64,000 nucleotides of DNA from Terriglobia bacterium (GTDB lineage: Bacteria > Acidobacteriota > Terriglobia > Terriglobales > Acidobacteriaceae), in assembly GCA_020073665.1 (NCBI GenBank), contig JAIQEU010000003.1:1-64000 (forward strand). Reading direction: 5' to 3'. Positions 36,326 to 53,868 of this stretch are shown here, one piece after another. The notes under the pieces were generated by a model. It worked only from the letters and a program-made list of their open reading frames with translations. It was not told where the DNA came from and searched no databases. The position numbers and the translations under genes are program-made. The stretch's first letter is position 1. The number at the start of each line of letters is the position of its first letter.

Positions 36326-36360
36326 TCTGGCCTGGCGAATGAGCGATGGGGCGTGGCTGC

Positions 36361-37629: not shown

Positions 37630-37717
37630 AACGGTTTCGCTCCAAGAGTGAGTAAGTGGTACAGCTGGGTACTAGAAATCAACTTATAGACGGGCGAATG
37701 TGCCAAATGTCGGTAGC

Positions 37718-37735
37718 TTGTCAAAAGATTGTCAA
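37718..37735 (+). promoter_or_regulatory. Pho-box-like direct repeat
   Basis: TTGTCAA, a four-base AAGA spacer and TTGTCAA again give two identical heptamers with an 11-base period. This is the architecture bound by PhoB/OmpR-type regulators (Pho box CTGTCAT-N4-CTGTCAT). It lies between the divergent propeller gene and an OmpR-type regulator gene, 159 bases before the latter. Assignment is by pattern only. Confidence 0.5.
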
Positions 37736-37738
37736 CAA

Positions 37739-37753
37739 TGTGTTTACAACACA
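37739..37753. promoter_or_regulatory. Palindrome, possible operator
   Basis: TGTGTT-TAC-AACACA, a perfect inverted repeat with six-base arms, lies three bases after the Pho-box-like repeat. It may be a second regulator site in the divergent promoter region; no regulator can be assigned. Confidence 0.35.
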
Positions 37754-37893
37754 CTCACAGGGAAAGAGTGGTAGTAAGCTTGTTCGAGTAGTGGGGCCCG
37801 AAGCGGAAAAAAGGCAATGGAGCAGATATGATAAGACTAGAAGGAATCCGACCATCGGTGATGCCGCGGCCGCAGCCCATGCGAGGAGATTCC

Positions 37894-38598
37894 ATGTCGT
37901 TTGATCCCGGAACACTCAATATGGAACGGATCTTGGTTGTCGAAGATGATCGCGCGGTGCAAAAGGCGATGAAGCGCCTGTTCGAGGCAGAGGGCTTTGT
38001 GGTGGAAATCAGCGGCGACGGCAAGTCGGCGCTGGAGGCTTTCCGTGCCGCCGCTCCATCGGCCGTCGTCCTTGACCTGCGTCTGCCCGCCATGTCGGGC
38101 CGGGACGTTTGTCGCGAAATCAAACAACAGTCGCCCGGGTTGCCGATTATTGTGGTCAGCGCAACCAGCGACGTTTCCGACAAGGTCCTGTTGCTGGAAC
38201 TTGGCGCCGACGATTACGTCACTAAGCCGTTTAGCCCCCGGGAATTGTTGGCTCGCGTGCGAGCGGCGTTGCGTCGTACGGTGCGCAGCGGTGGCGGCGA
38301 AGTGGTGTCTTTTGCCGGCATCTCCGTGGACTTCACCAAGATGGAAGTGGTACGTGAGGGACAGCCGGTGGTGCTGACCGCCCAGGAGTTCAAGACTTTG
38401 AAATTCCTGGTGCAGAACCCGGACCGGGTGATCAGCCGCGACGAGTTGCTGAACGAGGTCTGGGGCTACCAGAACTATCCTTCCACTCGCACCGTGGACA
38501 ACCACATTCTGAAGCTGCGGCAGAAGTTGGAGAAAGATCCGGCAAATCCCGTGCATTTCCGTACCGTCCATGGCATGGGTTATAAGTTCGTGCGGTAG
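37894..38598 (+). CDS. OmpR/PhoB-family response regulator
   Basis: A 234-residue two-domain regulator. Receiver: Asp18-Asp19 pocket, phospho-Asp61 (VVLDLRLP), Lys111 (VTKPF). The winged-helix DNA-binding domain begins about residue 138 and contains LTAQEFKTLKFLVQNP and the recognition helix TRTVDNHILKLRQKL, ending HGMGYKFVR. ATG 37894 is chosen for its GAGGAGAT ribosome binding site; an in-frame ATG at 37828 lacks one. It is followed after 50 bases by a sensor kinase. The direct repeat at 37718 is a candidate autoregulatory site. Confidence 0.93.
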   Translation: MSFDPGTLNMERILVVEDDRAVQKAMKRLFEAEGFVVEISGDGKSALEAFRAAAPSAVVLDLRLPAMSGRDVCREIKQQSPGLPIIVVSATSDVSDKVLLLELGADDYVTKPFSPRELLARVRAALRRTVRSGGGEVVSFAGISVDFTKMEVVREGQPVVLTAQEFKTLKFLVQNPDRVISRDELLNEVWGYQNYPSTRTVDNHILKLRQKLEKDPANPVHFRTVHGMGYKFVR

Positions 38599-38648
38599 CC
38601 ACTATCAGGCGCGGTGATCGCCAAGAAGCAGACCCGGGGAGAGCGAGC

Positions 38649-40454
38649 ATGAGACTAAGAATGCGGACCAAGTTCCTGCTCTCCATGCTGCTCATCACCG
38701 CCGGCCTGACTTGTACCAGCCTGCTGCTGGTGCGCAGCAGCGTTCAGGGCCAGGTCAAGAAAGAAATTTTCGCCGACTTGCATAACTCCGTCAGCACCTT
38801 TCAGAATTTCCAGCGGGAAAGGGAACTGACGCTGACGCGGTCTGCGGAGTTGCTGGCCGACTTGCCCAACCTGCGGGCGCTGATGACCACCCAGGACGAG
38901 GCCACCATCCAGGATGCCTCGAATGACCTGTGGCGGTTGGCCGGTAGCGACTTGTTTGTGCTGGCGGACCGCACCGGACGCGTGGTGGCGCTGCATACCA
39001 CTTCCCCTGGCTTTACCCGCCAGATGGCGCAGGATTCGTTTGCCGGTTCGTTGGATCAGGAGGGTTCGGACCATTGGTGGTTCGGCGCGCACCATCTCTA
39101 CGAAGTTTTTCATAGACCCATCTACTTCGGCCGTGCCTCTGAGAACCGCCCCCTGGGGTTCCTGGTGATCGGCTTCGAGATCGACGACAGCGTGGCATCC
39201 CAAGTGAGCCGCATTGCCGCCAGCCAGGTCGCATTCGCTTACGGTGACACCATCGTGCGGAGCACGCTCACGCCTTCCGAAGAAGCCGCACTCACGCGCT
39301 GGAAGGTGCCTCGCTCGGTCACCGGGGCCGCCGAGCCTGAAGAGGTTCACCTCGGCGACGAGCGCTTCCTGGGTACAACCCTGGAACTGGCGTCCGAGAA
39401 AGCGCCTTCAGTTCGCCTGACGGTCCTCAAGTCCTACGATCAGGCCACCACGTTTCTTGACAGTTTGAACCGGTTGCTGCTGGCCCTCGGCCTGGCTGCG
39501 GTAGTGGGTGGCAGTGCGCTGGTGTTTCTCATCTCCCACACATTTACGCGCCCGCTGGGCAACCTTGTAGCCGGTGTCCGCGCCCTGGAGAAAGGCGATT
39601 ACTCCTATCCGCTGGACGCGCGGGGTGGCGATGAAGTCGCAGAGGTGACTGGCGCTTTTGACCGCATGCGCACCAGCCTGCTGCAAACCCAGCAGGAACT
39701 GCTGGAGGCGGAGCGCCTGGCCACCATCGGGCGCATGGCCAGTTCTATATCGCACGACCTGCGCCATTCCCTCGCTGCCATCGTCGCCAATGCCGAGTTT
39801 CTGTGCGAGAGCCGGCTGTCGACCGAGCAACGTGAAGAGCTCTACCAGGAAGTCCGGGTGGCAGTGAACCAGATGACCGACCTGCTCGACTCTCTGCTGG
39901 AGTTTTCCCGCACCCGGGAGTCGCTGCGCCCGTCCTTTGGCAGCGTGAAGGAATCGGTAGAGCACGCGGTGCAGGCAATCCGTTCGCATCCGGAGTACCA
40001 CCTGGTGCGTTTTTCCGTCAACCAGGTGGGGAACAGTGTCGGATGGTTTGACAGCAAGCGACTGGAACGCGCGCTGTATAACCTGCTCCTGAACGCCTGT
40101 GAGGCGGTCGCCACGGACCGGGGCTGCATCGATATCGACCTGAAAGAAGTCGACGGCGGCGTCGAGATACGTGTTTCTGACAACGGCCGTGGGATTCCCG
40201 AGTCGATTCGCGGTAAACTCTTCGAGCCGTTTATCAGCTATGGCAAGGAGAATGGCACCGGGCTTGGCTTGACCGTGGTGCAGAAGATTGTGCAGGACCA
40301 TGGTGGCGACGTGAGCGTAGAAAAGACGTCAGAACACGGCACGGTTTTCCGGCTGCTGCTTCCCCTCGCCTCCGTTCAAACTGGAGAGGACAACCGAGGG
40401 GAAAAGTTGTCCTCTCCTCCCATTGCGCAGACAAAGAGAGTGCTGCCGGAGTAG
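38649..40454 (+). CDS. Sensor histidine kinase with extracytoplasmic sensor domain
   Basis: A 601-residue kinase. TM1 (about 8-28) and TM2 (about 275-296) enclose a roughly 245-residue extracytoplasmic region with a helical start and a Cache-like fold pattern (LFVLADRTGRVVALH, GFLVIGFEID). A HAMP linker (297-349) leads to HisKA with phospho-acceptor His369 (SSISHDLRHSL) and a HATPase domain (N box NLLLNACEAV, G1 DNGRGI, G2 GTGLGL). The Cache-like call is from motif feel only. It pairs with the preceding OmpR-type regulator; the porin and cupredoxin genes that follow are plausible targets or partners. Confidence 0.9.
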   Translation: MRLRMRTKFLLSMLLITAGLTCTSLLLVRSSVQGQVKKEIFADLHNSVSTFQNFQRERELTLTRSAELLADLPNLRALMTTQDEATIQDASNDLWRLAGSDLFVLADRTGRVVALHTTSPGFTRQMAQDSFAGSLDQEGSDHWWFGAHHLYEVFHRPIYFGRASENRPLGFLVIGFEIDDSVASQVSRIAASQVAFAYGDTIVRSTLTPSEEAALTRWKVPRSVTGAAEPEEVHLGDERFLGTTLELASEKAPSVRLTVLKSYDQATTFLDSLNRLLLALGLAAVVGGSALVFLISHTFTRPLGNLVAGVRALEKGDYSYPLDARGGDEVAEVTGAFDRMRTSLLQTQQELLEAERLATIGRMASSISHDLRHSLAAIVANAEFLCESRLSTEQREELYQEVRVAVNQMTDLLDSLLEFSRTRESLRPSFGSVKESVEHAVQAIRSHPEYHLVRFSVNQVGNSVGWFDSKRLERALYNLLLNACEAVATDRGCIDIDLKEVDGGVEIRVSDNGRGIPESIRGKLFEPFISYGKENGTGLGLTVVQKIVQDHGGDVSVEKTSEHGTVFRLLLPLASVQTGEDNRGEKLSSPPIAQTKRVLPE

Positions 40455-40539
40455 GATTTCCTTATCGATGTGCCCGGCTGCGACGGGGTCGCGGCCTGTG
40501 TCGGGTGGGGTAATTCCAGATTTGCTGCGGGAGGCGAAC

Positions 40540-42129
40540 GTGAAGCAGGGGAATGGTTTGCCTGTACGGATAGGAGACTGCGGCAGGCTGCTTTTGGTGC
40601 TGCTGCTCGGAGCTGCCGTGGGGTGGGCGCAAGAAAGCAAACCCGCGGCGGCACCGCCTGACCAGTCGATGGCGGACGCCGTCCGCGAACTCCAGGAGCA
40701 AGTGCGTGAATTGCGCGCCGCGGTGGCGGAAGTGCGCAGCGAAGCCGCCCAGTACCGCGCCGAAACCCTGGAACTGCGCCACGAGCTGGAAGCCAATCGG
40801 CAGGCCCCGGCCACCGCCCCGACCGTATCTGCGGCCGCGCCTTCCGGAGCAGTCCGCACCGCATCGAGCGGTGGAGAGTCCCAGCCTGACACGGCGTCGC
40901 TCGAACAGCGTGTGGCCTCACTGGAAGAAGCGTCGCAGCTACAGGGCGGCAAAATCGACGAGCAGTACCAGACCAAAGTTGAGGGCGCGTCGAAATACCG
41001 GGTGCGGCTCTCCGGGCTGGTGTTGTTGAATCTCTTCAGCAATCGTGGAACTACCGACAACCCGGATTTCCCCACCTGGGCGGATCCTCCCGGGCCCTTT
41101 GATTCCAACGGGAACTTCGGAGCCACCCTCCGCCAGTCCGAGTTGGGGCTTGAGGTTTTTGGCCCACGCCTGGCGGGTGCGAAGACTTCCGCCAACTTGC
41201 AGCTGGATTTTTCCGGAGGCTTTGCCACGACCGCCAACGGAAACAACTTCGGCCTGGTTCGCATGCGCATCGCCAGCATGCGGCTGGACTGGGAGAACAC
41301 CTCGGTCGTGGCCGGGCAGGACAACCTGTTCCTTTCTCCGCTCTCGCCAACCTCGTTCGCTTCGCTGGCAGTTCCGGCCTTCGGCTACGCCGGAAACCTG
41401 TGGGGTTGGATTCCGCAGGTGCGAGTGGAGCATCGCTTTGATTTGTCCCCGCAGCAAAGCGTGACCGTGCAAGGCGGCATTATTGACAATGTTACGGGCG
41501 AGTTCCCCTACGATCCGATTGCCCGCATCCCGCAAGCCGGAGAAAAATCCAGCCAGCCTGCCTATGGCGCACGCGTGGCTTGGACGCGGAATCTCTTTGG
41601 GCAGCCCGTGACTCTGGGGACGGGGGGCTACTATAGCCGGCAGAACTGGAGCTTCGGTCACCACGTGGATGGCTGGGCTGGCATGACTGACTGGGACATT
41701 CCCTTGGCTCCCCGGGTGCGTCTTTCCGGCGAGTTCTACCGCGGGCGAGCGGTGGCAGGCTTGGCGGGCGCGATTGGGACCGACGTGCTGCTCAGCAGTA
41801 ACACGTTTGGCCCCACCACCCAGGTGCGGGGTTTGAATTCCATGGGCGGGTGGTCGCAGTTGAAGCTCAAGGCTACCGCCAAACTCGAGTTCAACGGCGC
41901 ATATGGCGTGGACAGTCCATTTGCCAGCGATTTCCGGGCGATTCCGGGAGGCTTGGCCAATTACACCAACGCGCTGGTACAGAATCGCAGCACCCTGGTG
42001 AACTTCATCTATCGGCCACGCTCGAACCTACTGTTCTCCACCGAGTATCGGCACTTGCGGACCAGCCAACTCGACAACGGCCCCTATACGGCGGAGCAGG
42101 TCAATCTGATGATGGGAATTTTGTTCTGA
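40540..42129 (+). CDS. Outer-membrane porin, DcaP-like
   Basis: A 529-residue outer-membrane protein. After a signal peptide (LLLVLLLGAAVGWAQ) comes a coiled coil (about 40-85, ELQEQVRELRAAVAEV) and a Pro/Ala linker, a second short heptad (VASLEEASQL), then a beta-rich barrel that starts with RVRLSGLVLLNLF and ends with an aromatic terminal residue (LMMGILF). A trimerising coiled coil before the barrel is characteristic of DcaP-type and related phosphate-selective porins. GTG 40540 is chosen because GGGAGGCG sits five bases upstream; the 39-codon extension is not signal-like. Substrate unknown. The next gene begins two bases after its stop. Confidence 0.72.
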   Translation: MKQGNGLPVRIGDCGRLLLVLLLGAAVGWAQESKPAAAPPDQSMADAVRELQEQVRELRAAVAEVRSEAAQYRAETLELRHELEANRQAPATAPTVSAAAPSGAVRTASSGGESQPDTASLEQRVASLEEASQLQGGKIDEQYQTKVEGASKYRVRLSGLVLLNLFSNRGTTDNPDFPTWADPPGPFDSNGNFGATLRQSELGLEVFGPRLAGAKTSANLQLDFSGGFATTANGNNFGLVRMRIASMRLDWENTSVVAGQDNLFLSPLSPTSFASLAVPAFGYAGNLWGWIPQVRVEHRFDLSPQQSVTVQGGIIDNVTGEFPYDPIARIPQAGEKSSQPAYGARVAWTRNLFGQPVTLGTGGYYSRQNWSFGHHVDGWAGMTDWDIPLAPRVRLSGEFYRGRAVAGLAGAIGTDVLLSSNTFGPTTQVRGLNSMGGWSQLKLKATAKLEFNGAYGVDSPFASDFRAIPGGLANYTNALVQNRSTLVNFIYRPRSNLLFSTEYRHLRTSQLDNGPYTAEQVNLMMGILF

Positions 42130-42131
42130 CC

Positions 42132-42848
42132 ATGAAACCATCGCTTGTCCATTACTGGTGCTGCCTGGTGCTGCTGCTGCTGGCGAGCGTCCCTGCCCGG
42201 ACCCAGGTTACGCTCAGCGCGCACGTAGAACTGGGGAGCAGGCGCAGCGTGCACCAGTCCGGCAATGTGGTGCTCTGGCTTTCGCCAGTCGGAGGCCGGG
42301 CTGATTTTCCGCCTTCCGCATTGCAGACTCCGCGGTTGGTGCAAAGGAACAAGAGCTTCGATCCTCATGTGCTGGTGGTGCCGGTGGGTGCGGTGGTGGA
42401 ATTCCCCAACCGCGATCCCTTCTTTCACAACGTGTTTTCGTTGTTCGAGGGCAAGCGCTTCGACCTTGGCCTGTACGAGGCCGGAAGCACTCGGGATGTG
42501 CGCTTTGACAAGGCCGGCATCTCTTACATCTTCTGCAATATTCATGCCGAGATGAGCGCCGTGGTTATCGCTTTGGACACACCCTATTACGGAATCTCGA
42601 ACCCTCGCGGCGAAGTGATCATTCCCCAGGTTCCTGCTGGCCGCTACACCTTGCACGTCTGGTACGAGGCCGCACTCCCCGACAATTTGAAGGGGTTGAC
42701 CCGGGAGATCAACGTTTCCGAGAACAGTTCTACCCTGGGAGTGATTCGACTTCCTCAAGCCCAGTTGCAGCAGGCCCACAAGAACAAGTACGGACGCGAC
42801 TACGACCAGCCTGTGCCCGCCGATAGTCCGGGCTACCAACGCCCCTGA
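42132..42848 (+). CDS. Periplasmic cupredoxin-like protein
   Basis: A 238-residue exported protein of the methylamine-utilisation-like cupredoxin group. Signal peptide (CCLVLLLLASVPARTQ). Four residues match a type-1 copper site: His99 (PFFHNVFS), Cys135, His138 and Met141 (FCNIHAEM). A Greek-key domain (about 75-150) is followed by a beta-sandwich extension with IIPQVPAGRYTLHVWYE, like carboxypeptidase-regulatory domains. It probably transfers electrons or binds copper in the periplasm. It begins two bases after the porin stop, so the two are almost certainly co-transcribed. The copper ligands are seen; the redox partner is unknown. Confidence 0.78.
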   Translation: MKPSLVHYWCCLVLLLLASVPARTQVTLSAHVELGSRRSVHQSGNVVLWLSPVGGRADFPPSALQTPRLVQRNKSFDPHVLVVPVGAVVEFPNRDPFFHNVFSLFEGKRFDLGLYEAGSTRDVRFDKAGISYIFCNIHAEMSAVVIALDTPYYGISNPRGEVIIPQVPAGRYTLHVWYEAALPDNLKGLTREINVSENSSTLGVIRLPQAQLQQAHKNKYGRDYDQPVPADSPGYQRP

Positions 42849-43119: not shown

Positions 43120-43398
43120 CTATCGGGAATTGGGGTCCGGGTCGACGAGACGCTGGTGGACGTAGCGCCGGATGTCGAGGCTGGGTTCGCCCTGCCTGGT
43201 GCGCACTACCAGCACGCTCTCTCCGAGCACATCGAGAATCTCGGAGTCGCCCGGATTAGGAAGCTGTTCCTCCCGTCCCCCGCAGAATCATTCCCGGAAG
43301 AAGATGTGCTCCTTTTCACGGGCAAAAATTTCGTCTAAGAGATACCAGGAACTGGGCAGCGACTTCTGCAGGCCGGTCGTATTAGCGGACGTCGTCAT
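43120..43398 (-). pseudogene. Decayed Rieske ring-hydroxylating oxygenase (N-terminal remnant)
   Basis: On the minus strand an ATG at 43398 reads LPSSWYLLDEIFAREKEHIFF-RE, then TGA at 43288-43290 where the family has Trp, then continues in the same frame with FCGGREEQLPNPGD and LDVLGESVLVVRTRQGE. This is the conserved N-terminus of Rieske non-haem iron oxygenase alpha subunits. Beyond about codon 72 similarity fades (the expected CxH cluster motif is garbled), and a stop follows at 43120-43122; no catalytic domain is found further on. It lies at the downstream end of the methyltransferase/oxidase gene series. The remnant differs clearly in sequence from the intact Rieske protein at 48169. The plus-strand frame here (43063-43338) is an antisense shadow. 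Confidence 0.8.
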
Positions 43399-43451
43399 AG
43401 GATACGAACCGGGACGCGGCGGAACGGATGGCCCCTCCGCGTCCTCTGTGG

Positions 43452-44450
43452 TCACGGTTTTTTCGCAGTTGCCTCGTCGTGGCCGTAATACTCATACGCC
43501 GACATGGGCTTTTCGCCGCCTTTTACCCACAACCGCTGGTCGTCCGGCAGCTTGCCCAGCGCACGGGCCATCTCGCGCACGTGAATCGCCACCGAGCCGC
43601 AGCAGGAACCGATGTAGTTGATCCCCAGGTTGCGCGCGTCCACGGCGTACTGGCCCATCTCCTTGCGCGTGAGTTGCAGCGGGTCAAGCGCACACGGAAA
43701 CTCCGGCAGGCTGGTGAAGTCCGGCTTGTCCTTGGGGGTACGGTAGCCGACCGGCTGGCATGCCAAATAGCCGGAAACAGCTTTGCGCATCTTCTCCATG
43801 CTGGGCAGCATATGCACGGGTGGCCGCAGGCAGTTCATGCCCACGATGTCGGCCCCGGCGTCGAGCAGTGTCTTCGCGGCATCGGCAGCGCTCTTGCCTT
43901 CCATGGTCTCATCTTTGTTCTCGAAACAGATGGTGACCATAACCGGCAGTCCGGTTTTCTTGCCCCGTTCGACGGCAATCAATGCTTCTCCCAGCCAGGA
44001 GAAAGTCTCGCCGATGATGAAGTCCACGCCTTCGGCGACCTGCACTGCCAGTTGCTCGTCGAAGGTCTTGCGCACGCGGTCGGCAGCCGAGGGACTATTT
44101 GGCTCGTACATCCAGGTAAGACTGATATTGCCCGCGACCAGGCACTTGTCCCCTGCGACTTCGCGTGCCACGCGGACCGCCGAGCGATTCAAGTCTTCCA
44201 GCCGGTCTTGTAAGCCGACGGTGGCCAACTTGTCGCGGCTGGCGTAGAAAGTCAGCGCCTGGAGGACGTCCGCCCCGGCTTCGCGAAACTCTACGTGCAG
44301 TTCACGCAATGCATCGGGATAAGTAAGCGCGACTTCGGGAGTGAACGGACCCGCGCGTACCCAGCCGCGTTTTTCCAGTTCCAGCAGGTAACCGCCATCG
44401 CCGAGGACTGGGCCTTCTTTGAGGCGTTCGAGGATGCCTTTTTTCTTCAT
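43452..44450 (-). CDS. Zinc-dependent homocysteine S-methyltransferase (betaine type)
   Basis: A 332-residue member of the homocysteine methyltransferase family (pfam S-methyl_trans), which moves a methyl group from betaine, S-methylmethionine or a similar donor to homocysteine. The three zinc Cys are seen: Cys207 (GMNC) and Cys283-Cys284 (GSCCG). The barrel start GDGGYLLELEKRG and the C-terminal aromatic segment YEYYG resemble betaine-homocysteine methyltransferases. AAGGAG precedes ATG 44450. Its neighbours are amine oxidases and Rieske oxygenases, which points to a betaine-like methyl donor, but the donor is inferred. Last intact gene of the minus-strand series. Confidence 0.85.
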   Translation of the reverse strand: MKKKGILERLKEGPVLGDGGYLLELEKRGWVRAGPFTPEVALTYPDALRELHVEFREAGADVLQALTFYASRDKLATVGLQDRLEDLNRSAVRVAREVAGDKCLVAGNISLTWMYEPNSPSAADRVRKTFDEQLAVQVAEGVDFIIGETFSWLGEALIAVERGKKTGLPVMVTICFENKDETMEGKSAADAAKTLLDAGADIVGMNCLRPPVHMLPSMEKMRKAVSGYLACQPVGYRTPKDKPDFTSLPEFPCALDPLQLTRKEMGQYAVDARNLGINYIGSCCGSVAIHVREMARALGKLPDDQRLWVKGGEKPMSAYEYYGHDEATAKKP

Positions 44451-44474
44451 GCGGTGCTCCTTGAGTGCTTCGTG

Positions 44475-44495
44475 GCCGGCGAGACGCCGGCGCTA
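44475..44495 (-). repeat. Small GC-rich palindromic repeat, copy 1
   Basis: A perfect seven-base stem GCCGGCG/CGCCGGC with AGA loop lies in the 47-base gap between the oxidase and methyltransferase genes. Fifteen bases (TAGCGCCGGCGTCTC on the minus strand, 44481-44495) are identical to a second copy at 48129-48143. It resembles REP-type dispersed elements. Confidence 0.6.
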
Positions 44496-44497
44496 AC

Positions 44498-45679
44498 CTA
44501 GTCGTCCTTGTATTCGAACTCTGCCTTGATCGGCTTGCCTTCTGCAAAGCGGCTGGGACGAAAGCTGCTGATGTCCACCGTCTTGCCTTTACCGTCGAGC
44601 AGTAACTCTGACATGACCAGCCCGATGGCTGGCGCAATCTTGAAGCCCATCCCCGAAAATCCCGCGCACACGTGCAGGCCGTCGATCCCGGGTACTTCGC
44701 CCAGTAGTGGGCGCGCATCCGGTGACATGTCGTAGACACCAGTCACTCCGCGCATCACTTCCGCGTTTTCGAGCTTGGGAACCCGGCAGCAGGTGCGCTC
44801 GATGATCGCTTCCAACGATTCGTCGGATGCTCGCTGCGGGAAGTTATCGGGATCAACCGGGCGCTTTCCATAAAAATCGCCGACCAGGAATTTGTCCTGC
44901 CCATCCGAGCGGAAATAGGTTGCGGTGATCGAGTCAATGCAAGCCATCCCTCCGCCCTTCATGCCAGGGGCATTTTTCAGGATGGCGACCTGGTGGTACT
45001 CAGGCTCGATGGGCAAGTCATAGCCGACCTGCTGGAACAGGGGTCGAGTCCACGGGCCAGTGGCTGCCACTACCACCGGTGCTGCGATTTGTCCATGTTC
45101 GGTGACCACGCCGCGGACTCGTCCTTCGGCCACCTGAAAGGCAGTGACCTGGGTCTTGGGCACGTAGGTCACACCCAGGTCGCGGGCGCGGGAAAGAAAG
45201 TCATTGGCCACATTCGCCCCGTCACCGTAACCGGAATCGGGTTCATAAGCCGCTAGTTCGATGTCGTCGGTATTCCAGTCGGGCTCCAGCTCTTTTAGTT
45301 CTTGTCCCGTAATCAGCCGCACGTTGACTCCGAGCTTGGCCTGCATGGCCACATTCTGTTTCAGGCGCTCGATTTCATTGGCGGGCACCGTGCGGACAAA
45401 GCCGGTTTTGCGGAAGTCACCAGCTTCTCCCACGATTTCGCGCCAGTGCTGGAACATGTGCAGGCTTACCAGCGCCAGTTGCACCTCGGGCGGATAGCTG
45501 TAGTGCATGCGAATGAGGGCAGAGGAGCGACCTGTACCACCAAAGCCCACATGGTCTTTGTCGATGAGTACTACATTTCCGGCCTTGCGCCTGGCCAGAT
45601 GAAAAGCCAATGAGGCTCCCATAATTCCGGCGCCAACGATCACCACGTCGGCCGTCCTGGGAAGGGAATTGCTGCTCAT
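44498..45679 (-). CDS. FAD-dependent oxidoreductase, sarcosine/dimethylglycine oxidase type
   Basis: A 393-residue DAO-family flavoenzyme. The dinucleotide-binding motif GAGIMG is at 16-21, the glycine/serine stretch GFGGTGRSSALIR follows the second strand as in sarcosine oxidase, and the C-terminal FAD contact is CAGFSGMGFKIAPAIG. Such enzymes oxidise N-methyl or secondary amino acids. ATG 45679 has AAGGAGG six bases upstream and overlaps the stop of the upstream gene by four bases (ATGA), so translation is coupled. Together with the methyltransferase it fits stepwise removal of N-methyl groups; the exact substrate is not readable from sequence. Confidence 0.87.
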   Translation of the reverse strand: MSSNSLPRTADVVIVGAGIMGASLAFHLARRKAGNVVLIDKDHVGFGGTGRSSALIRMHYSYPPEVQLALVSLHMFQHWREIVGEAGDFRKTGFVRTVPANEIERLKQNVAMQAKLGVNVRLITGQELKELEPDWNTDDIELAAYEPDSGYGDGANVANDFLSRARDLGVTYVPKTQVTAFQVAEGRVRGVVTEHGQIAAPVVVAATGPWTRPLFQQVGYDLPIEPEYHQVAILKNAPGMKGGGMACIDSITATYFRSDGQDKFLVGDFYGKRPVDPDNFPQRASDESLEAIIERTCCRVPKLENAEVMRGVTGVYDMSPDARPLLGEVPGIDGLHVCAGFSGMGFKIAPAIGLVMSELLLDGKGKTVDISSFRPSRFAEGKPIKAEFEYKDD

Positions 45680-47322
45680 GCGGCGGCCTCCTTGAAACGT
45701 CCCTTTTTCCAGTCGCGCAGCACTTGCTGGGCCGCGTTGTGGCCAGGCGCGCCCGTGACCCCGCCGCCGGGATGCGTGCCTGCCCCACATAGATAGAGAC
45801 CGTCGATGGGCGTGCGATATTGCGACCAGCCGGACACCGGGCGCATAAAGAAGAGCTGCTCCAGACGCAGATCGCCGTGGAAGATGTTGCCTTCGGTTAG
45901 ACCGTAGGTGCGCTCCAGATCGAGAGGCGTGAGCACCTGGCGCGCAAGAATGGAATTCGGCACGTTGGGCGCGTACTCACCGATCTTCCTTACTACCCGG
46001 TCGCCCAGCAGTTCGCGATTCTCATCCCACGTGCCCTGGCGCAAATGGTAGGGAACGTACTGCACGAAGCAGGTAAGAATGTGTTTGCCCCTGGGCGCCA
46101 GTGAGTCGTCGGCATTCGACGAGACCACGCAGTCCACCCAGAGTTCTTCAGGGATCTCCCCGAACTTGCAGGTGTCATAGCAACGCTCGGCAAACTCGAG
46201 CGACGGCACCAGGGTGTAGAACGACCGCTCCAGTGGAGTGTATTGCGACGGAGTCCCGGTGAAACGTGGCTCTTCGTTCAGCACCAGGTTTACCTTCGCG
46301 CAGGGACCCGCCATCTTGATACCGCGAATCGCGTGCACGAAATCGCCGGGCAGCTCGCTCTCGGGAATCATCCCCAGGAAAGTGCGCTTGGGGTCGGCGT
46401 TGGAAAGCACCATGCGCGCCCGGATCTCGGTGCAGTCCTGCAGCACCACGCCGCGGGCGCGGCCGTTGCGAATATCAATCTGCGCGACCGGCGCCGCAGT
46501 GCGAATTTCGACGCCGAGCTTGCGTCCGGCCGCCGCCAGCGCTTGCGTGATCGAACCCATGCCGCCGATCACGTGTCCCGAGAAGCCTTGCAGGTTGTGC
46601 TCGCCGCCGCTCAGCAAGTGAAAGAGCAATCCGATGGCAGTACCGGGCTGGTACGGACCCCCGTGCTTGCCATACACGTTGTTGGCCAGGAACATCGTCT
46701 TGATGATGTCGGATTCGTAGTTGTGGTCGAGGAATTCACCCAGGCTGCCGGTGAGGAAAGCCACCAGCTGCGAAATTTCATCGCTCGAAATGCCGCGGAA
46801 GCGTTTGCCCACGCGGAACAGGTCGGCCCAGCCGCCGATGCTGCCGGCATCAATCTCCGGCGGTGGCTCCATGAAGAACGGTTGCAGGTAGCGCGCCAGC
46901 TTTTTCAGTTGGTCATCGACGCGGACGAATGTCTCGGCATCTTTCGCGGAGAATTTTCCGAACTCCGCCTTCGCGCGGGTGCGGTCCACCCACCACGGGA
47001 CAACTCGCCCATCCGGAAAGGCCACTTGGATGGCGGGGTCGCAGGGCACCATGCGCAGCCCATGTTCGGCCAGCTTGAGATCCTCAATCACTTCCGGCCG
47101 CAGCATGCTGGCAATGTAGGAAGTGGTCGAGACCCGGCAACCGGGCGCAATCTCTTCGGTCACGCAACAACCGCCTACAATATCGCGGCGCTCCAGCACC
47201 AGCACGGAGAGTCCGGTGCGCGCCAGGTAAGAAGCGGCGGTCAAGCCGTTGTGGCCGGCGCCGATCACGATCGCGTCGTAAATCCTGTTTGAGCTCAACC
47301 CCACGTTTTGCCCATGACCCAC
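45676..47322 (-). CDS. NAD(P)/FAD oxidoreductase, phytoene-desaturase/PYROXD2-like
   Basis: A 548-residue flavoprotein of the carotenoid desaturase/amine oxidase superfamily. The FAD motif GAGHNGLTAASYLA is at 21-34 with Glu44 to bind ribose, and the C-terminal FAD region reads GLYLCGAGTHPGGGVTGAPG. It belongs to the PYROXD2-like branch, whose substrates are poorly known. No ATG is in frame near the start; GTG 47322 or GTG 47304 are possible, neither with a good ribosome binding site. It opens the minus-strand series and diverges from a TetR-family gene that probably controls it. Confidence 0.85.
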   Translation of the reverse strand: MGHGQNVGLSSNRIYDAIVIGAGHNGLTAASYLARTGLSVLVLERRDIVGGCCVTEEIAPGCRVSTTSYIASMLRPEVIEDLKLAEHGLRMVPCDPAIQVAFPDGRVVPWWVDRTRAKAEFGKFSAKDAETFVRVDDQLKKLARYLQPFFMEPPPEIDAGSIGGWADLFRVGKRFRGISSDEISQLVAFLTGSLGEFLDHNYESDIIKTMFLANNVYGKHGGPYQPGTAIGLLFHLLSGGEHNLQGFSGHVIGGMGSITQALAAAGRKLGVEIRTAAPVAQIDIRNGRARGVVLQDCTEIRARMVLSNADPKRTFLGMIPESELPGDFVHAIRGIKMAGPCAKVNLVLNEEPRFTGTPSQYTPLERSFYTLVPSLEFAERCYDTCKFGEIPEELWVDCVVSSNADDSLAPRGKHILTCFVQYVPYHLRQGTWDENRELLGDRVVRKIGEYAPNVPNSILARQVLTPLDLERTYGLTEGNIFHGDLRLEQLFFMRPVSGWSQYRTPIDGLYLCGAGTHPGGGVTGAPGHNAAQQVLRDWKKGRFKEAAA

Positions 47323-47412
47323 AGTCAGAACAACTTAGCTGTAGGGGAGATACATTAGCGTAGGACTACTAAAAATAGAATTGAAATGCGAGGTTTTTTT
47401 CGGTACAGTTCC

Positions 47413-47427
47413 ATGACTTGAGGTCAT
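47413..47427. promoter_or_regulatory. Possible TetR-family operator
   Basis: ATGAC-TTGAG-GTCAT is a perfect inverted repeat placed four bases before the TetR-family start codon and overlapping its GAGGT ribosome binding site, in the 108-base divergent spacer. Occupancy would repress the regulator itself and possibly the oppositely oriented oxidase genes. Based on symmetry and position alone. Confidence 0.4.
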
Positions 47428-47430
47428 TCT

Positions 47431-48117
47431 ATGAGTGGGATCAGTAGCAGCTTGGTTTCTCCGCCGCGCTACCGGAACCTGCCCGCGCGGCCGCGTTCCG
47501 AGGGCAAGCGGGCCCGGATCGTGGACGCGGCCATGCGGCATTTCGCCGAGCAGGGCTATAACGCGGCGCGTGTCGGTGACATTGCCGCCGCCCTAGGCAT
47601 TGCCAAGGGATCGATTTTCCAGCACTTTGGGAGCAAAGACGGCTTGTTCTTCGAGGTCTACAAGAAAGCGGTGCGCTCGTTTCCGCGCTACCTCGACGCT
47701 CCCGTCGAGGTGCGCGACCGCGGGTTCTTCGAAGTTCTTCGCTACTGGCTGGCCCGCACCGAACACCTGGTGCATGAGGACTGGATTCCCTACCGCGTGT
47801 CGCTGCTGGGCAACTACGGAACTGACCTGGCGTTGAAGCGCGAAATCAACCGCTTCTTCATGGCGGAAGATCCGTATGGCACCGTGACCTTCGTCCGCTT
47901 CGGGTTGCAACGCGGAGAACTGCGCAAAGATCTTGACCAGGAGATGATCGTTTCCATCCTGGATTGGACCATGGAGCGCTTTCAGGACGCGCTGCTCACC
48001 GAGGAACTGGATCCCGGACTTTTCCGCCGCCAGGGCGATCCTTCCGAGAAAAAAGATGCACGCATCGCCCAGTTTCTGGATGTGCTGCAGCGGGCGATCG
48101 GTGCCGAGCGGCGCTAA
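47431..48117 (+). CDS. TetR/AcrR-family transcriptional regulator
   Basis: A 228-residue regulator. The N-terminal helix-turn-helix is clear: RIVDAAMRHFAEQGY, then VGDIAAALGIAKGSIFQHFGSKDGLF at about 45-72. The ligand domain is unassigned. ATG 47431 follows GAGGT. The gene diverges from the flavoenzyme series and precedes the intact Rieske gene by 51 bases, so it could coordinate both arms of the island. An inverted repeat overlapping its ribosome binding site suggests autorepression. Confidence 0.9.
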   Translation: MSGISSSLVSPPRYRNLPARPRSEGKRARIVDAAMRHFAEQGYNAARVGDIAAALGIAKGSIFQHFGSKDGLFFEVYKKAVRSFPRYLDAPVEVRDRGFFEVLRYWLARTEHLVHEDWIPYRVSLLGNYGTDLALKREINRFFMAEDPYGTVTFVRFGLQRGELRKDLDQEMIVSILDWTMERFQDALLTEELDPGLFRRQGDPSEKKDARIAQFLDVLQRAIGAERR

Positions 48118-48128
48118 GGAAACCGACG

Positions 48129-48148
48129 TAGCGCCGGCGTCTCCGGCG
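48129..48148 (+). repeat. Small GC-rich palindromic repeat, copy 2
   Basis: Stem CGCCGG/CCGGCG with a CGTCT loop, between the TetR and Rieske genes. TAGCGCCGGCGTCTC (48129-48143) matches copy 1 at 44481-44495 in opposite orientation; the outer arm has diverged. Confidence 0.6.
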
Positions 48149-48168
48149 GCCGAAGGGCACAACTCCTG

Positions 48169-49305
48169 ATGATCAAGGGCATGTCAGTACAACAGATTCT
48201 TGCCAGCTACGACGACCGGGCCCCACTCTCGGAAGCCTCCACCATCCCGGCGCCGTGGTACGTAGACGCGCGTATCGCAGAACTGGAAACGAAGACTGTT
48301 TTCAGCCAGACCTGGCAGATGGTCGGACGCATCGAGCAGGTGGAGAAAGCGGGCCAGTTTGTGACCGCCACCGTGGCTGGCGAGCCGATCGTCGTCGTCC
48401 GCGGCAATGACGGGGTTCTGCGCGGCTTCTACAACGTTTGCCGGCATCACGCGGCTGCCGTGGTTACCGAGCCCTGCGGGCAAGCGTCGATCCTGCATTG
48501 TCCGTATCACGGCTGGAATTACGGGTTGGATGGCGCGCTGAAAGGCATGCCGGAATTCGACGGCGTGAAAGACTTCGATCGCCAGAAAAATGGCCTGGTC
48601 CCGGTGCGGGCCGAGATTTGGGAGAAATTCGTTTTCATCAACCTGGATCCGCAGGCTGCCCCGCTGCATGAGTTCCTCGGAGGACTGGTCCGCAAGGCGG
48701 CGCCGCTTGGCCTGGCAAAGCTCAATTACTTTGACAGCCGCTCCTACGACATCCACTGCAACTGGAAAGTCTTCATCGACAACTATCTGGATGGCGGGTA
48801 CCACGTTCCCCACCTGCACAAGGCCCTGAGCTCGGTGCTCGATTACAAGGCGTACACCATCGAGAACGAAGATCGTTACTGCCTGCAGTCGAGCCCGATG
48901 GTGTCGTCCGACGAAGACGCAGCCACCGGAGCCACGCGCAAGGGCGACCGCGCCTGGTACTTCTGGCAATATCCCAACCTGATGATCAATTGCTACGAAG
49001 GCTACATGGACACGAACCTGGTGATCCCGATTGATGTCGATCATTGCCGGGTGATCTTTGATTTTTACTTCAGCGACGTCAGCGAAGCGCGGCGGGAGTA
49101 CAACACGCAAAGCGTCGCCGTCGGCAATCGCGTGCAAGACGAAGACCTGGGCATCTGCGAAGCGGTACAACGAGGCTTGAAGTCGAGAGCTTATGGCGCG
49201 GGCAGGCTTTCGGTTCGCCGTGAAGCTGGGGAACAATTATTCCATCAGTTGCTGGCGGCAGACTTAAAGCGCGGCTTAGGAGCAGGGGCCGCGGCAGCAG
49301 ATTGA
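48169..49305 (+). CDS. Rieske non-haem iron oxygenase, choline-monooxygenase-like
   Basis: A 378-residue oxygenase alpha subunit. Rieske [2Fe-2S] ligands are Cys91-x-His93 (CRHH) and Cys111-x2-His114 (CPYHGW). The mononuclear iron site is in DNYLDGGYHVPHLH with His212 and His217; this string is nearly that of plant choline monooxygenase, and related bacterial enzymes demethylate glycine betaine, carnitine or stachydrine. It should hydroxylate a trimethyl- or dimethyl-ammonium compound, releasing formaldehyde if it demethylates. No reductase gene is adjacent, so electrons must come from elsewhere. ATG 48169 is kept; ATG 48181 is too close to AAGGG. The substrate is inferred from motif and neighbours. 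Confidence 0.88.
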   Translation: MIKGMSVQQILASYDDRAPLSEASTIPAPWYVDARIAELETKTVFSQTWQMVGRIEQVEKAGQFVTATVAGEPIVVVRGNDGVLRGFYNVCRHHAAAVVTEPCGQASILHCPYHGWNYGLDGALKGMPEFDGVKDFDRQKNGLVPVRAEIWEKFVFINLDPQAAPLHEFLGGLVRKAAPLGLAKLNYFDSRSYDIHCNWKVFIDNYLDGGYHVPHLHKALSSVLDYKAYTIENEDRYCLQSSPMVSSDEDAATGATRKGDRAWYFWQYPNLMINCYEGYMDTNLVIPIDVDHCRVIFDFYFSDVSEARREYNTQSVAVGNRVQDEDLGICEAVQRGLKSRAYGAGRLSVRREAGEQLFHQLLAADLKRGLGAGAAAAD

Positions 49306-49355: not shown

Positions 49356-50633
49356 TTGAAACGACTCGTTCTGCAGCTCTCCGTCTTGTGGCTGTCGTGC
49401 ACGCTTCTCGCCGCCGCGCAAACCACCGCTATTAAAGCCGGACGCCTCGTCGATCCGGACACGGCCAGCGTGCTGACCGATCAGATCATCCTGATCCAGG
49501 ACAACAAGGTGCAGGCAGTCGGCAAGGGTCTCCCGATCCCTGCCGGCGCCAAAGTCATCGATCTCTCCAACATGACCGTCCTCCCCGGCCTGATCGATTG
49601 CCACACCCACGTGGCCGACGCCGGAGACGCCGAACCCTTTGACGTTCTGAAGCACACTGCCGCGGAAACCGTTCTGGCTGCGATTCCCAACGCCCGCAAG
49701 ATGCTCGAGTCCGGTTTCACCACGGTCCGCGACGTGGGCACGTATCGCGCGCTGAACGACGTTGCACTGCGCGACGCGATTGCCAAGGGCATCGTGGTTG
49801 GCCCGCGCATGTACGTAGCCGGAGCTTACATCACGATCACCGGAGGCGCCGGCGCCATGACCGGCATGGCGCCCGACATCCAGTTGCCCTGGGACCTGCA
49901 CTACGGAGAAGCCAACAGCCCGTGGGAAGTGCGGCAGAAAGTCCGGCTGCTGGCCCATAACGGGGTTGACATGATTAAAGTTCTCTCCACCGGCGCGGTG
50001 CTTACGCACGGCAGCAGTCCGAAATCGATCGAGTTCACTCCCGAAGAACTGCAGGCGGTGGTGGACGAAGCCAGCCACTTCGGCCTGAAAGTGGCGTCGC
50101 ACGCGCACGCTGCCGAAGGCATCAAGAACGCGATCCGGGCAGGCGTTGCTTCCGTCGAACACGCGACTTTGATTGACGACGAAGGCATCGCTCTGGCCAA
50201 GCAGCATGGCACTTATCTCGACATGGATATCTACGACGAAGAGTGCATCCAGGAAAACGGCCGGAAGGGAACAGAGCCCAAAGATTTTCTGCAGCACGAT
50301 GCCGACCTGGGCGAGGCGCAGCGGCAGAATTTTCGCAAGGCGGTGAAAGCTGGAGTGAAGATGGCGTTCGGCACCGATGCAGGAGTGTGTCCGTACGGTA
50401 CCAGCGGCAAGCAGTTCGCCTTCATGGTGAAGTACGGCATGACGCCGATGCAGGCCATTCAGGCGGCAACAACCAACGCTGCAGACTTGCTGGGACACAG
50501 CGACGTGATCGGTTCGATCAAGGCCGGTAAGTACGCCGACATTGTTGCAGTTTCGGGAGACCCGCTCGCGGATGTCGGCGTGCTGGAGAATGTGCAGTTT
50601 GTTATGAAGGATGGGAAGGTCTACAAGGAGTAA
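49356..50633 (+). CDS. Secreted amidohydrolase, Xaa-Pro dipeptidase/imidazolonepropionase-like
   Basis: A 425-residue metal-dependent amidohydrolase with signal peptide (LSVLWLSCTLLAAAQ). Metal ligands follow the family order: His83-x-His85 (DCHTH), carbamylated Lys208 (MIKVLSTG), His249 (SHAHA), His269 (VEHAT) and Asp341 (GTDAG). Close relatives hydrolyse Xaa-Pro or other C-terminal dipeptide bonds with two zinc ions. The start is TTG 49356, preceded by GGGGTGA. It lies 50 bases after the Rieske gene and may be co-transcribed. Peptidase activity is inference from the family. Confidence 0.88.
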   Translation: MKRLVLQLSVLWLSCTLLAAAQTTAIKAGRLVDPDTASVLTDQIILIQDNKVQAVGKGLPIPAGAKVIDLSNMTVLPGLIDCHTHVADAGDAEPFDVLKHTAAETVLAAIPNARKMLESGFTTVRDVGTYRALNDVALRDAIAKGIVVGPRMYVAGAYITITGGAGAMTGMAPDIQLPWDLHYGEANSPWEVRQKVRLLAHNGVDMIKVLSTGAVLTHGSSPKSIEFTPEELQAVVDEASHFGLKVASHAHAAEGIKNAIRAGVASVEHATLIDDEGIALAKQHGTYLDMDIYDEECIQENGRKGTEPKDFLQHDADLGEAQRQNFRKAVKAGVKMAFGTDAGVCPYGTSGKQFAFMVKYGMTPMQAIQAATTNAADLLGHSDVIGSIKAGKYADIVAVSGDPLADVGVLENVQFVMKDGKVYKE

Positions 50634-51819: not shown

Positions 51820-53868
51820 TTATTGGTGATCCCGCGGGACCTTCTCCTCCCAGCTCTTAGTCTTAACCAGCACCCCGTCGTTCAAAACTTCCCGCGTGTA
51901 CTTGTAATAGAAGTTCTTCTGGTCAGTAGTCACCGACAGATGCCCGCGCCAGGTCAGCGTGCGGCCCTTCAGCGCGAAAATGCTTTCCGCTTCGCCTTTC
52001 ACGGCGCATGCTTCCGGATGGGCGTCGTCCACGTCGTAGGTCAGGGCTTCGTAGTCGGTTTCTTTTCCCCAGGGGAAGGTGCTCTCGTCTTTGCCTTTCC
52101 AGTGGACGGTGGTTTTCTGGCGTCCTTCGTCGCGTAGCAGGGTCCATTCTCCGGGCCAGGGGAAGCCGATGGTTTGGACGTCTTTTCGTTCCTCGGAAGG
52201 CTCGGGCGGCGCGAGCGCCGGGGGCTTGGCTCCCTCGATCGGCACCACCGGCAGCACCAGCCGCGAGCCTTGCTCACCGCCTAATTCCAGCGACGTGGTC
52301 ATTGCGTACGGCGTGGGCAAGATCATCGGCCACATCGCGTTTGAAATCGCTATGCGGATGCGGTGTCCCCTGGGAAACACCCATGACGTCAAATGCATTT
52401 CGATGTCGAGCGCGTAGGTTGTGCCGGGCACCAGGTCTTTGGGGTCGCTCATCGACTCGCGCTGTGCTCCGTTTAGACCTGCGCCGGTAATTTGCGTGAC
52501 ACTGCCGTCGGGCGCTACATCCGACAAGCGCGCAAACCAGTCGGCCAGCGGTGCCGTCGCCGAAGCCCGCAGCAGGGCGTGCGGATGCCCGAGGATCGCA
52601 ACTTCTTCCGTCAGCGGCGCGGTTTCGTACACCAGGCTGAAGGCGTCCACCGGGCGCACGTCGCTGAGCAACTCGCCCCACCAGAAGCCTGCTTCCACGC
52701 CGATAGACGGAACATATTTAAGGTGATGCACATCCGCCGGAGGCGCTGAAACCGCCAGCGTGTGGTTCGGTTGCAGAAACAACGCGGATTGTTTCTGGTT
52801 TGCCGGCGGCCACTGGTCCTCGCGTCGCCATTCTCCGGGCACCGTCTCCAGGTTGGGATCGGGCGGCCGCCAATGCTGCATGAAGACCACCAGCTTCGGG
52901 TCCTGCAGCACGCCGGTGTCGCGTCCCTTCAGCCAGTAATCCCACCAGCGCACGGCCTGGTCGCGCCACTCCACGTGCGGACCGAAGTCGGCGTCGTTGG
53001 GCCAACCGTGATTCCACGGGCCAATCAGCGCGCGCACCGGCACTTTGGCTTGCTCGAGAATGGCCGGGATGCTGTCGCGATATCCGTCCTGCATGCCTCC
53101 GATCAGAAATGCGGGCACCTTGATTTCGCTGTACGGACGCACCGGGCTGCGCCAGAAGGGGCCGTCATGCTGGTGCTTTAGATACATCAACGACCACGGT
53201 GGCGTTTCGAAGCGAGTGTTCAGGATGTAGTCGTCGAGAGCATAGTCCGGCGCGGCGGCGAAACCCTCCGCCATGTCCATGTTCAGTTCGAACTCGTCGA
53301 CGTGCGCCATGCCGTCCATGTAGTGGACGTCGTCGTGAAAGAGTTCTGAAGTCGCGGCGGTGGCGATGATGGCTTTCAACTCCGGCGGATGGCGCATCGC
53401 CATCTGCAGGGAATTGAATCCTCCCCAGGAGATGCCGAACATGCCTACGTTGCCGTTCGACCACGGTTGCGTAGCCAGCCAGTGAATGACCTGCTCGCCG
53501 TCGAGTTGTTCCTGCTCGGAATATTCGCGGTCGGTCGGAGTGCCCTTACTGGCGCCGAACCCGCGGATATCAACGCGCGCGCCCACATAGCCGCGGCGGG
53601 CGAAGTAGGCATGCTTGGGATAGTCGCCGGCGGCGGTGCCGTCGTCCTTGCGGTAGGGCAGGTATTCGAGCAGGGCCGGGAACTTCTCTCCGGGCCTGGC
53701 GCCATCGGGCATATATAAGGTAGCTGCCAGGTGCACGCCGTCTTTCATGGGAATCCACGCCTGCTCCACGCGGACTCCGTAAGTTGGTGGGGAAGGCGGC
53801 TCAGCCGTCCAGGCAGACAAAGTTACGGCCAGCAATAGCAGCAGTAATAAGTAAGGACGTGGGCCCAA
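51820..53868 (-). CDS. Secreted CocE/NonD (X-Pro dipeptidyl-peptidase S15-type) hydrolase
   Basis: A 682-residue exported serine hydrolase. Signal peptide (LLLLLLLAVTLSAW). The alpha/beta domain has nucleophile Ser147 in FGISWGG; a strand with ARVDIRGFGASKG precedes it; the base is probably His in GPWNHGWP. The C-terminal third is the jelly-roll X-Pro peptidase domain (LHLTSWVFPRGHRIRIAIS). Family members hydrolyse acyl esters (cocaine esterase), beta-lactam side chains or Xaa-Pro peptides. The start is TTG 53868, supported by AGGAG five bases upstream. It lies 34 bases downstream of the RpiR-family gene and probably shares its transcript. Confidence 0.88.
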   Translation of the reverse strand: MGPRPYLLLLLLLAVTLSAWTAEPPSPPTYGVRVEQAWIPMKDGVHLAATLYMPDGARPGEKFPALLEYLPYRKDDGTAAGDYPKHAYFARRGYVGARVDIRGFGASKGTPTDREYSEQEQLDGEQVIHWLATQPWSNGNVGMFGISWGGFNSLQMAMRHPPELKAIIATAATSELFHDDVHYMDGMAHVDEFELNMDMAEGFAAAPDYALDDYILNTRFETPPWSLMYLKHQHDGPFWRSPVRPYSEIKVPAFLIGGMQDGYRDSIPAILEQAKVPVRALIGPWNHGWPNDADFGPHVEWRDQAVRWWDYWLKGRDTGVLQDPKLVVFMQHWRPPDPNLETVPGEWRREDQWPPANQKQSALFLQPNHTLAVSAPPADVHHLKYVPSIGVEAGFWWGELLSDVRPVDAFSLVYETAPLTEEVAILGHPHALLRASATAPLADWFARLSDVAPDGSVTQITGAGLNGAQRESMSDPKDLVPGTTYALDIEMHLTSWVFPRGHRIRIAISNAMWPMILPTPYAMTTSLELGGEQGSRLVLPVVPIEGAKPPALAPPEPSEERKDVQTIGFPWPGEWTLLRDEGRQKTTVHWKGKDESTFPWGKETDYEALTYDVDDAHPEACAVKGEAESIFALKGRTLTWRGHLSVTTDQKNFYYKYTREVLNDGVLVKTKSWEEKVPRDHQ

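Follow-up and report, generated by a model that had tools for sequence, protein, structure and literature searches.

The first 64,000 nucleotides of contig C48 (JAIQEU010000003.1; this whole stretch is hereafter the window) carry a divergent gene island, which we judge fairly likely to be a TetR-controlled module by which a Terriglobia bacterium breaks down an amino compound that is N-methylated and probably quaternary. The contig is 320,643 bases long, the window is its start, and the genome counts 5.4 Mb in 62 contigs. The five genes named in the original prediction are all present about where it had placed them: a BHMT-like homocysteine methyltransferase, a DAO-family oxidoreductase, a PYROXD2-like flavoenzyme, a TetR regulator and a Rieske oxygenase. 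The extent it gave to the island holds for these five, but the cluster is larger, since a Xaa-Pro amidohydrolase gene follows the Rieske gene. Gene content, conservation, palindromes, co-localisation and pocket residues come directly from computation. The features are as follows.

43452..44450, minus strand: BHMT-like zinc homocysteine S-methyltransferase, 332 amino acids (Pfam S-methyl_trans 158.6 bits; best PDB match BHMT1, 226.8 bits)
44498..45679, minus strand: DAO-family flavin adenine dinucleotide (FAD) amine/amino-acid oxidoreductase without folate domain, 393 amino acids (DAO 228.6 bits; best PDB match 1y56_B, 157.9 bits)
45676..47322, minus strand: PYROXD2/CrtO-like flavoenzyme of the amine-oxidoreductase family, window-type (W) clade (Amino_oxidase 73.2 bits; W clade support 100 in the Shimodaira-Hasegawa-like approximate likelihood ratio test, SH-aLRT)
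47315..47327, no strand: putative operator 1, TGACCCACAGTCA, a TGAC-N5-GTCA palindrome
47414..47426, no strand: putative operator 2, TGACTTGAGGTCA, a TGAC-N5-GTCA palindrome immediately ahead of the TetR start
47431..48117, plus strand: TetR regulator (TetR_N 62.1 bits)
48169..49305, plus strand: choline monooxygenase (CMO)-like Rieske oxygenase with DNYLDGGYHVPH and the group Va marker Tyr206 (Rieske 66.6 bits, Ring_hydroxyl_A 115.2 bits; best PDB match CntA, 166.3 bits)
49356..50633, plus strand: Xaa-Pro amidohydrolase (NCBIfam NF051886, 520.5 against a cut-off of 500)
51820..53868, minus strand: S15/CocE hydrolase (TIGR00976, 245.1 against a cut-off of 66.3)

About 100 bases separate the two divergent arms. 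In transcription order, the minus-strand arm holds the PYROXD2-like, DAO and BHMT-like genes, with the ATG of the DAO gene overlapping the stop of the PYROXD2-like gene before it (ATGA). Because the first palindrome covers 47315-47327, the true start of the PYROXD2-like gene probably lies a few codons inside the listed open reading frame. On the plus strand, TetR is followed after 51 bases by the Rieske gene and after another 50 bases by the Xaa-Pro amidohydrolase gene, which is perhaps co-transcribed with it. PYROXD2 is the family to which we take the flavoenzyme to belong, and none of the models listed carries that name.

The cluster is conserved in relatives. A single scan of 84,980 species genomes with the Rieske protein confirmed 96 relatives, and the 80 best of these serve here as named loci; neighbour-gene counts among them take in only loci long enough for the gene in question. 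The Rieske gene has TetR as a neighbour in 55 of 78 loci, and nearby are found a window-type PYROXD2-like gene (34/59), a BHMT gene (24/45), a DAO gene (16/50) and the S15 hydrolase gene (33/62), with the Xaa-Pro amidohydrolase downstream in 22 of 68. Since neighbour genes recur at these counts, the five genes are a real, conserved divergent cluster in Acidobacteriota and not a fortuitous grouping. In five of the 80 loci (L095-L099), an A/B pair of PYROXD2 genes and a GcvT-like gene stand in place of the window-type PYROXD2-like gene. Some relatives have no island, the Rieske gene being next to what are presumably a Dps-like gene and a two-component pair. The titles of the named relatives belong to acidobacterial groups, bar one labelled Gammaproteobacteria (L079); this contig has a TetR-Rieske pair of acidobacterial type, at 65% and 78% identity, and is perhaps mis-binned.

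Two relatives bear on the first step of the pathway. Genome G278, of another family, has all five genes in the same divergent layout (C61, locus L121), plus genes for an amino-acid permease and a second Rieske protein; identities are 50% for the APC permease, 44% for Rieske, 65% for TetR, 72% for the PYROXD2-like protein, 60% for DAO, 76% for BHMT and 30% for the second Rieske protein. At locus L069, a second Rieske type occupies the BHMT position, followed on the same strand by gcvT (448.0 against a cut-off of 300) and by genes that we take to be gcvH-like and gcvP-like. As L069 swaps one for the other, BHMT and the second Rieske enzyme may be suggested to do the same job. Against the GbcA model the second Rieske type scores 201.0 and 205.2, nearer than the 133.1 of the window protein and far under the cut-off of 670. 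The N-demethylation theme proposed earlier, with Rieske chemistry and methyl transfer to homocysteine as parallel first steps in one cluster, draws support from this replacement at L069 and from the presence of both enzymes in G278.

Alignment of the window's divergent region with 38 others reveals a TGAC-N5-GTCA palindrome beside each arm, and at least two sites are found in 31 of the 38 regions. The window has just two copies, both in the divergent region, a count that is in itself ordinary (at least two copies in 33 of 100 shuffles). The palindrome precedes TetR in 56 of 56 usable relatives, and beyond the upstream stretches of TetR and S15 only 7 occur in 1.19 Mb of the relatives' loci. 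It is therefore its place that is unusual, and not its count. We infer from its position that the palindrome is bound by the island TetR, as a predicted operator. This TetR scores 32.9 bits with the BetI model, under the cut-off of 201.3. The strict pattern TGACYNNNRGTCA occurs at 16 places genome-wide, three of them in two divergent regions: two at the island and one at 218,269 on the same contig, about 170 kb off (L129), where it has a tandem PYROXD2-like pair on one side and a divergent GcvT-like gene on the other. This second locus is probably in the same TetR regulon. The TetR is found in five of the 297 phylum genomes (G000, which is the window genome, G210, G278, G221 and G110), and in G210 the palindrome again lies between the PYROXD2 pair and the GcvT-like gene. 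Between facing PYROXD2 pairs and GcvT-like genes, it is present in 3/3 TetR-bearing genomes and in 0/15 TetR-less ones, or 1 in 816 by hand, the latter set being 15 genomes of the 297-genome sample with a divergent PYROXD2-GcvT stretch, so that many of the 67 GcvT-like loci fall outside the comparison; with the first 13 TetR-less genomes (0/13), Fisher's p is 0.0018. None of the five named loci L095-L099, whose TetR state is unknown, has a palindrome between its PYROXD2 and GcvT genes. In G221, one palindrome lies before and one just inside the TetR frame, beside a Rieske gene (29%). G110 has no GcvT-like match at the threshold, and no palindrome in the TetR stretch examined. In 5 of 32 relatives (L064, L068, L074, L077, L078), a palindrome also stands ahead of the S15/CocE hydrolase gene, making this hydrolase a possible regulon member in some of them; none was found upstream of the S15 gene in the window.

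The role of the PYROXD2-like enzyme was earlier said to have no known precedent in such a setting, a view that no longer holds, as PYROXD2-like genes recur beside Rieske and GcvT-like genes. In the 297 phylum genomes, a sample of a larger group, 96 carry PYROXD2-like genes (E up to 1e-40), and 64 carry GcvT-like genes of the kind linked to them (E up to 1e-90). With expectations based on one average genome size, a PYROXD2-like gene is found no more than 3 kb from 51 of 67 GcvT-like genes (about 0.24 expected), and of 41 Rieske loci 10 have a PYROXD2-like gene (0.22 expected) and 10 a GcvT-like gene (0.1 expected) within 10 kb; 12 have at least one of the two and 29 neither. Tandem arrangement is seen for 62 of the 150 PYROXD2-like genes listed. 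A tree of 65 PYROXD2-like proteins, made by a quick method and with several long branches, separates the window-type clade from an A and a B clade, leaving some single genes outside all three; members of alphaproteobacterial pairs fall in A and B in turn. The GcvT-like protein matches best the C-terminal part of trimethylamine N-oxide (TMAO) demethylase (292.6 bits, for a whole-protein cut-off of 1100), above the GcvT models. On four alphaproteobacterial plasmids, two PYROXD2 genes and an aminomethyltransferase gene are accompanied by one to three Rieske genes and by genes for TetR, ABC importers and transaminases. Six of the seven Rieske proteins on these plasmids are 24-29% identical to that of the window, and the seventh is cut at the end of its stretch. 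That the same PYROXD2/GcvT partnership recurs while the Rieske enzymes differ points to function and not to shared descent alone. Single PYROXD2-like genes are found in the four other plasmid contexts examined: next to a gcvT-annotated gene in Shinella, about 9 kb from an aminomethyltransferase gene in Paracoccus, and in Sphingobium and Rhodococcus with neither of these genes. We know of no PYROXD2-like member of these settings with tested activity. In the open-licence literature, no paper was found that joins PYROXD2 to an aminomethyltransferase, or to bacterial homologs and demethylation, nor one that combines at least five of the themes aminomethyltransferase, Rieske, phytoene, methylated compounds, operon and demethylation.

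The top NCBIfam match of the PYROXD2-like protein is the CrtO ketolase model NF045689, at 285.3 bits, far under the cut-off of 1000. The fold predicted for it (mean predicted local distance difference test score, pLDDT, 77.2) is nearest to a carotenoid desaturase, with a Z of 32.7 and a root-mean-square deviation of 3.0 over 473 residues, followed by putrescine, monoamine and nicotine oxidases at Z of about 20 to 22, and also by renalases and protoporphyrinogen oxidases. The model would thus place the protein among carotenoid desaturases, then amine oxidases and relatives, and does not decide its function. PYROXD2 does not appear in the 60 best of 159 matches in a profile search of PDB sequences. 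A carotenoid function was rejected on score and setting, despite the nearest fold. Two further arrangements of these genes were seen. The 2.4 Mb genome G010, also from this phylum, has 13 PYROXD2-like genes in arrays of six and seven (L148, L149), one of which has two adjoining GcvT-like genes. At L130, L131 and L132, PYROXD2-like and DAO genes accompany a GltP-like symporter, a gene that we take to be glutamate-dehydrogenase-like and a protein of the arginine deiminase/dimethylargininase superfamily.

Evidence from human genetics also agrees with N-demethylation. PYROXD2 variants associate with N6-methyllysine and dimethyllysine (PMC9730628), and with urinary trimethylamine and plasma dimethylamine (PMC3169529). 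The association reaches P < 1e-307 for a urinary nuclear magnetic resonance signal assigned to trimethylamine, and a table of earlier reports adds 1-methyl-2-piperidinecarboxylic acid (N-methylpipecolate), caprolactam and asymmetric dimethylarginine (PMC4564198). Little is known of the precise function of PYROXD2, as a 2022 paper puts it (PMC8777681). By analogy, the recurring bacterial setting fits the human associations. Our tentative proposal, held with rather less than even confidence, is that the proteins of the PYROXD2 family are amine dehydrogenases that remove N-methyl groups, in the typical case as an A/B pair passing one-carbon units to a dedicated GcvT-like partner once a Rieske enzyme has opened the quaternary amine, and that human PYROXD2 is a mitochondrial version acting on methyllysine-like N-methyl amino acids.

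Alignment with the carnitine monooxygenase CntA shows that the Rieske protein of the window keeps all four ligands of the Rieske centre as well as the His-His-Asp site, and that its Tyr206 corresponds to CntA Tyr203. Among the 78 named loci with a full-length match, this marker is Tyr in 75 and Phe in 3, which is the mark of subgroup Va; the Asn at CntA position 203 that defines subgroup Vb is not found. The authors of the CntA structure state that the aromatic marker separates carnitine, choline and benzalkonium oxygenases from the glycine-betaine and stachydrine demethylases, which have Asn (PMC7948474). The Cys206/Cys209 pair next to the iron site of CntA, present in some group V enzymes, is replaced by G210 and V213. 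The CntA pocket aromatics F258, Y315 and F319 become A, V and V, conserved in 70 to 78 of the 78 loci, the alignment being unsure around residues 245-262. Since Ala or Val take the place of bulky residues, the pocket may be wider than that of CntA. With 133.1 bits against a cut-off of 670, the protein falls short of the GbcA model (NF058607), and aromatic dioxygenase models also match it below their cut-offs. Given this score and a Tyr where betaine demethylases have Asn, the glycine betaine or proline betaine of the original prediction is unsupported for the Rieske step, and glycine betaine draws mainly on one relative. The ten proteins scanned at 43.4-56.2 kb include no reductase; the genome has one FAD_binding_6 match, which lies on a different contig and scores 26.3 bits for a cut-off of 21.1, other kinds of reductase not having been searched. 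For the Rieske protein, AlphaFold gives a poor model (mean pLDDT 69.7, residues 209-262 under 50). A second CMO-like Rieske gene, 42% identical, is located near a contig end (C2:219918-220982, L117).

In the BHMT-like protein, the zinc cysteines C207, C283 and C284 are kept in all 28 named loci with a full-length match at 55% identity or more, as are E148 and Y69. In BHMT, W44, Y77 and Y160 form the aromatic cage for betaine; the corresponding positions are F36, Y69 and T149 in 28/28 loci. The score with the betaine--homocysteine S-methyltransferase model NF005718 is 104.9 bits, under its cut-off of 338. Close homologues are rare, in 6 of the 297 phylum genomes, and in G026 and G221 they adjoin DAO genes of one cluster, the G221 member scoring 306.6 with the N-methyltryptophan oxidase model, over its cut-off of 257. 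Methionine synthesis as the only role of this enzyme was rejected, the genome having two further S-methyl_trans proteins, whose frames span 1186 and 705 codons. Of the sarcosine/dimethylglycine-type oxidase that was first proposed, membership of the DAO family stands, and the folate domain of dimethylglycine dehydrogenases is absent: the 393-residue protein gives no GCV_T match, and the genome's three GCV_T proteins lie in open frames of 401-428 codons, too short for a fused dimethylglycine dehydrogenase. With soxA_mon TIGR01377, the monomeric sarcosine oxidase type, it scores 110.7 bits, under a cut-off of 479.65.

These elements suggest the following order of reactions. The Rieske oxygenase, in parallel with BHMT-like methyl transfer to homocysteine, would take off the first methyl group. 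The DAO and PYROXD2-like flavoenzymes would then dehydrogenate the tertiary and secondary amines, giving a primary amine and one-carbon units. The latter may be taken up by the GcvT-like folate aminomethyltransferase encoded with the PYROXD2-like pair 170 kb away, and would end in folate and methionine. Stepwise demethylation is the simplest account that explains together the palindromes, the replacement of BHMT by a Rieske enzyme, the neighbouring N-methyl oxidase genes, the partnership with GcvT-like proteins and the permeases. Amino-acid permeases adjoin the related loci L095-L098, L100, L121 and L129, and choline seems a less likely substrate than a betaine or an imported N-methylated amino acid. 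The titles and abstracts found in literature searches gave nothing on point for homarine or trimethyllysine as known substrates of such operons. The absence of a reductase among the neighbours scanned would allow a bolder idea, in which the flavoenzymes supply the Rieske oxygenase with electrons.

Several observations weigh against stepwise demethylation under TetR. No biochemical data were found for any member of the island families. The Rieske relatives often lack the other genes: 25 of 59 loci are without the window-type PYROXD2-like gene upstream, and DAO was not found in 34 of 50. The betaine cage of BHMT is only partly kept, two of its three aromatics being replaced by Phe and Thr. The strict pattern is no commoner genome-wide than its reversed control (16 vs 19), the site in the PYROXD2-GcvT region of G278 matches the loose pattern only, and the comparison made with the strict pattern gives 2/3 vs 0/13 (p 0.025). 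In G221, the separate PYROXD2 and GcvT loci have no palindrome. The palindrome and co-localisation statistics ignore shared ancestry, G000 and G210 being of one family. Finally, in published enzymes the group Va marker accompanies oxidation of choline, carnitine and benzalkonium and not N-demethylation of betaines (PMC7948474).

The main rival, which we hold to be unlikely, is a Rieske enzyme of group Va that cleaves C-N bonds or hydroxylates carbon, as carnitine- or choline-type oxygenases do, freeing trimethylamine or dimethylamine for oxidation by the PYROXD2-like and DAO proteins. The nearly invariant Tyr marker (with Phe in three loci) would agree with it, as would the retention of N274 and Y229, equivalents of CntA residues, the choice of CntA as best PDB match, the resemblance of the GcvT-like protein to the C-terminus of TMAO demethylase and the reported association of human PYROXD2 with trimethylamine and dimethylamine. 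However, a BHMT-type enzyme requires a methylated donor before cleavage, and the pocket aromatics of CntA and its Cys pair are both missing from the window protein. Unlike two carnitine-type loci examined, the ten proteins scanned also include no aldehyde/tartrate dehydrogenase, BCCT transporter or CntB-type reductase.

Classical glycine betaine catabolism, in which the Rieske enzyme and BHMT would yield dimethylglycine, and DAO and PYROXD2 then sarcosine and glycine, seems improbable to us. A BHMT1-like methyltransferase and the one OpuAC binding protein of the genome are consistent with it, and the gcvT gene at L069, with its gcvH- and gcvP-like companions beside the island, implies a glycine product; this single case may nevertheless be chance, and the GbcA score, the Tyr marker, the short frames of the GCV_T proteins and the amino-acid permeases at related loci speak otherwise. 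Very unlikely is an accidental neighbourhood, with a Rieske enzyme that hydroxylates some aromatic substrate and a PYROXD2-like protein that acts in carotenoid metabolism. CrtO as top NCBIfam match, the carotenoid desaturase as nearest solved fold of the predicted model, and the sub-threshold aromatic dioxygenase matches would suit such a reading, as would the statement that bacterial CMO-like enzymes have no known substrate (PMC6157903). Against it stand the low CrtO score, the conserved shared palindromes and the recurrent GcvT-like neighbours.

Ahead of the island, at 34970-42848, the window holds what we take to be two-component genes and a porin-like and a plastocyanin-like gene, some of which also precede the island in a few relatives.

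Stepwise N-demethylation would give the island a wider interest. It would tie the poorly understood PYROXD2 family, present in humans as in this soil acidobacterium, to N-demethylation chemistry. The combination of PYROXD2-like, Rieske and folate-type aminomethyltransferase proteins, here under one probable regulator, provides a concrete reaction to test. The island also offers a genomic handle on bacterial CMO-like oxygenases, which have been described as uncharacterised and without known substrate (PMC6157903).

Comparison with known systems gives each protein its own mixture of common and distinct traits. With human PYROXD2, the presumed likeness is one of family, and the human variants associate with N-methylated metabolites. 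BHMT has in common with the BHMT-like protein the zinc cysteines, the Asp, the Glu and one Tyr of the site, but W44 becomes Phe and Y160 Thr, and the protein is shorter at its C-terminus (332 vs 407 amino acids). The C-terminal domain of TMAO demethylase, akin to GcvT, is the best model for the PYROXD2-linked aminomethyltransferase, which differs in being a separate protein with no N-terminal demethylase domain. The glycine betaine monooxygenase GbcA and the stachydrine demethylase Stc2 are Rieske enzymes acting on quaternary amines, as is predicted for the window enzyme; its marker residue differs from both, and its score falls short with the GbcA model. The plant and bacterial CMO-like oxygenases (cd08883) show exactly the same Y.D...H....H spacing, which corresponds to Tyr281, Asp283, His287 and His292 of spinach CMO2 (PMC6157903); by ungapped counting, the window protein has Leu at 295 and Tyr at 301 where CMO2 has Tyr and Phe. 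With CntA and group Va, the window enzyme shares the Rieske and mononuclear ligands, the aromatic marker and the equivalents of Asn270 and Tyr225, but it has the one-residue insertion of the CMO type (DGGYH), no Cys pair, small pocket residues and no adjoining reductase gene.

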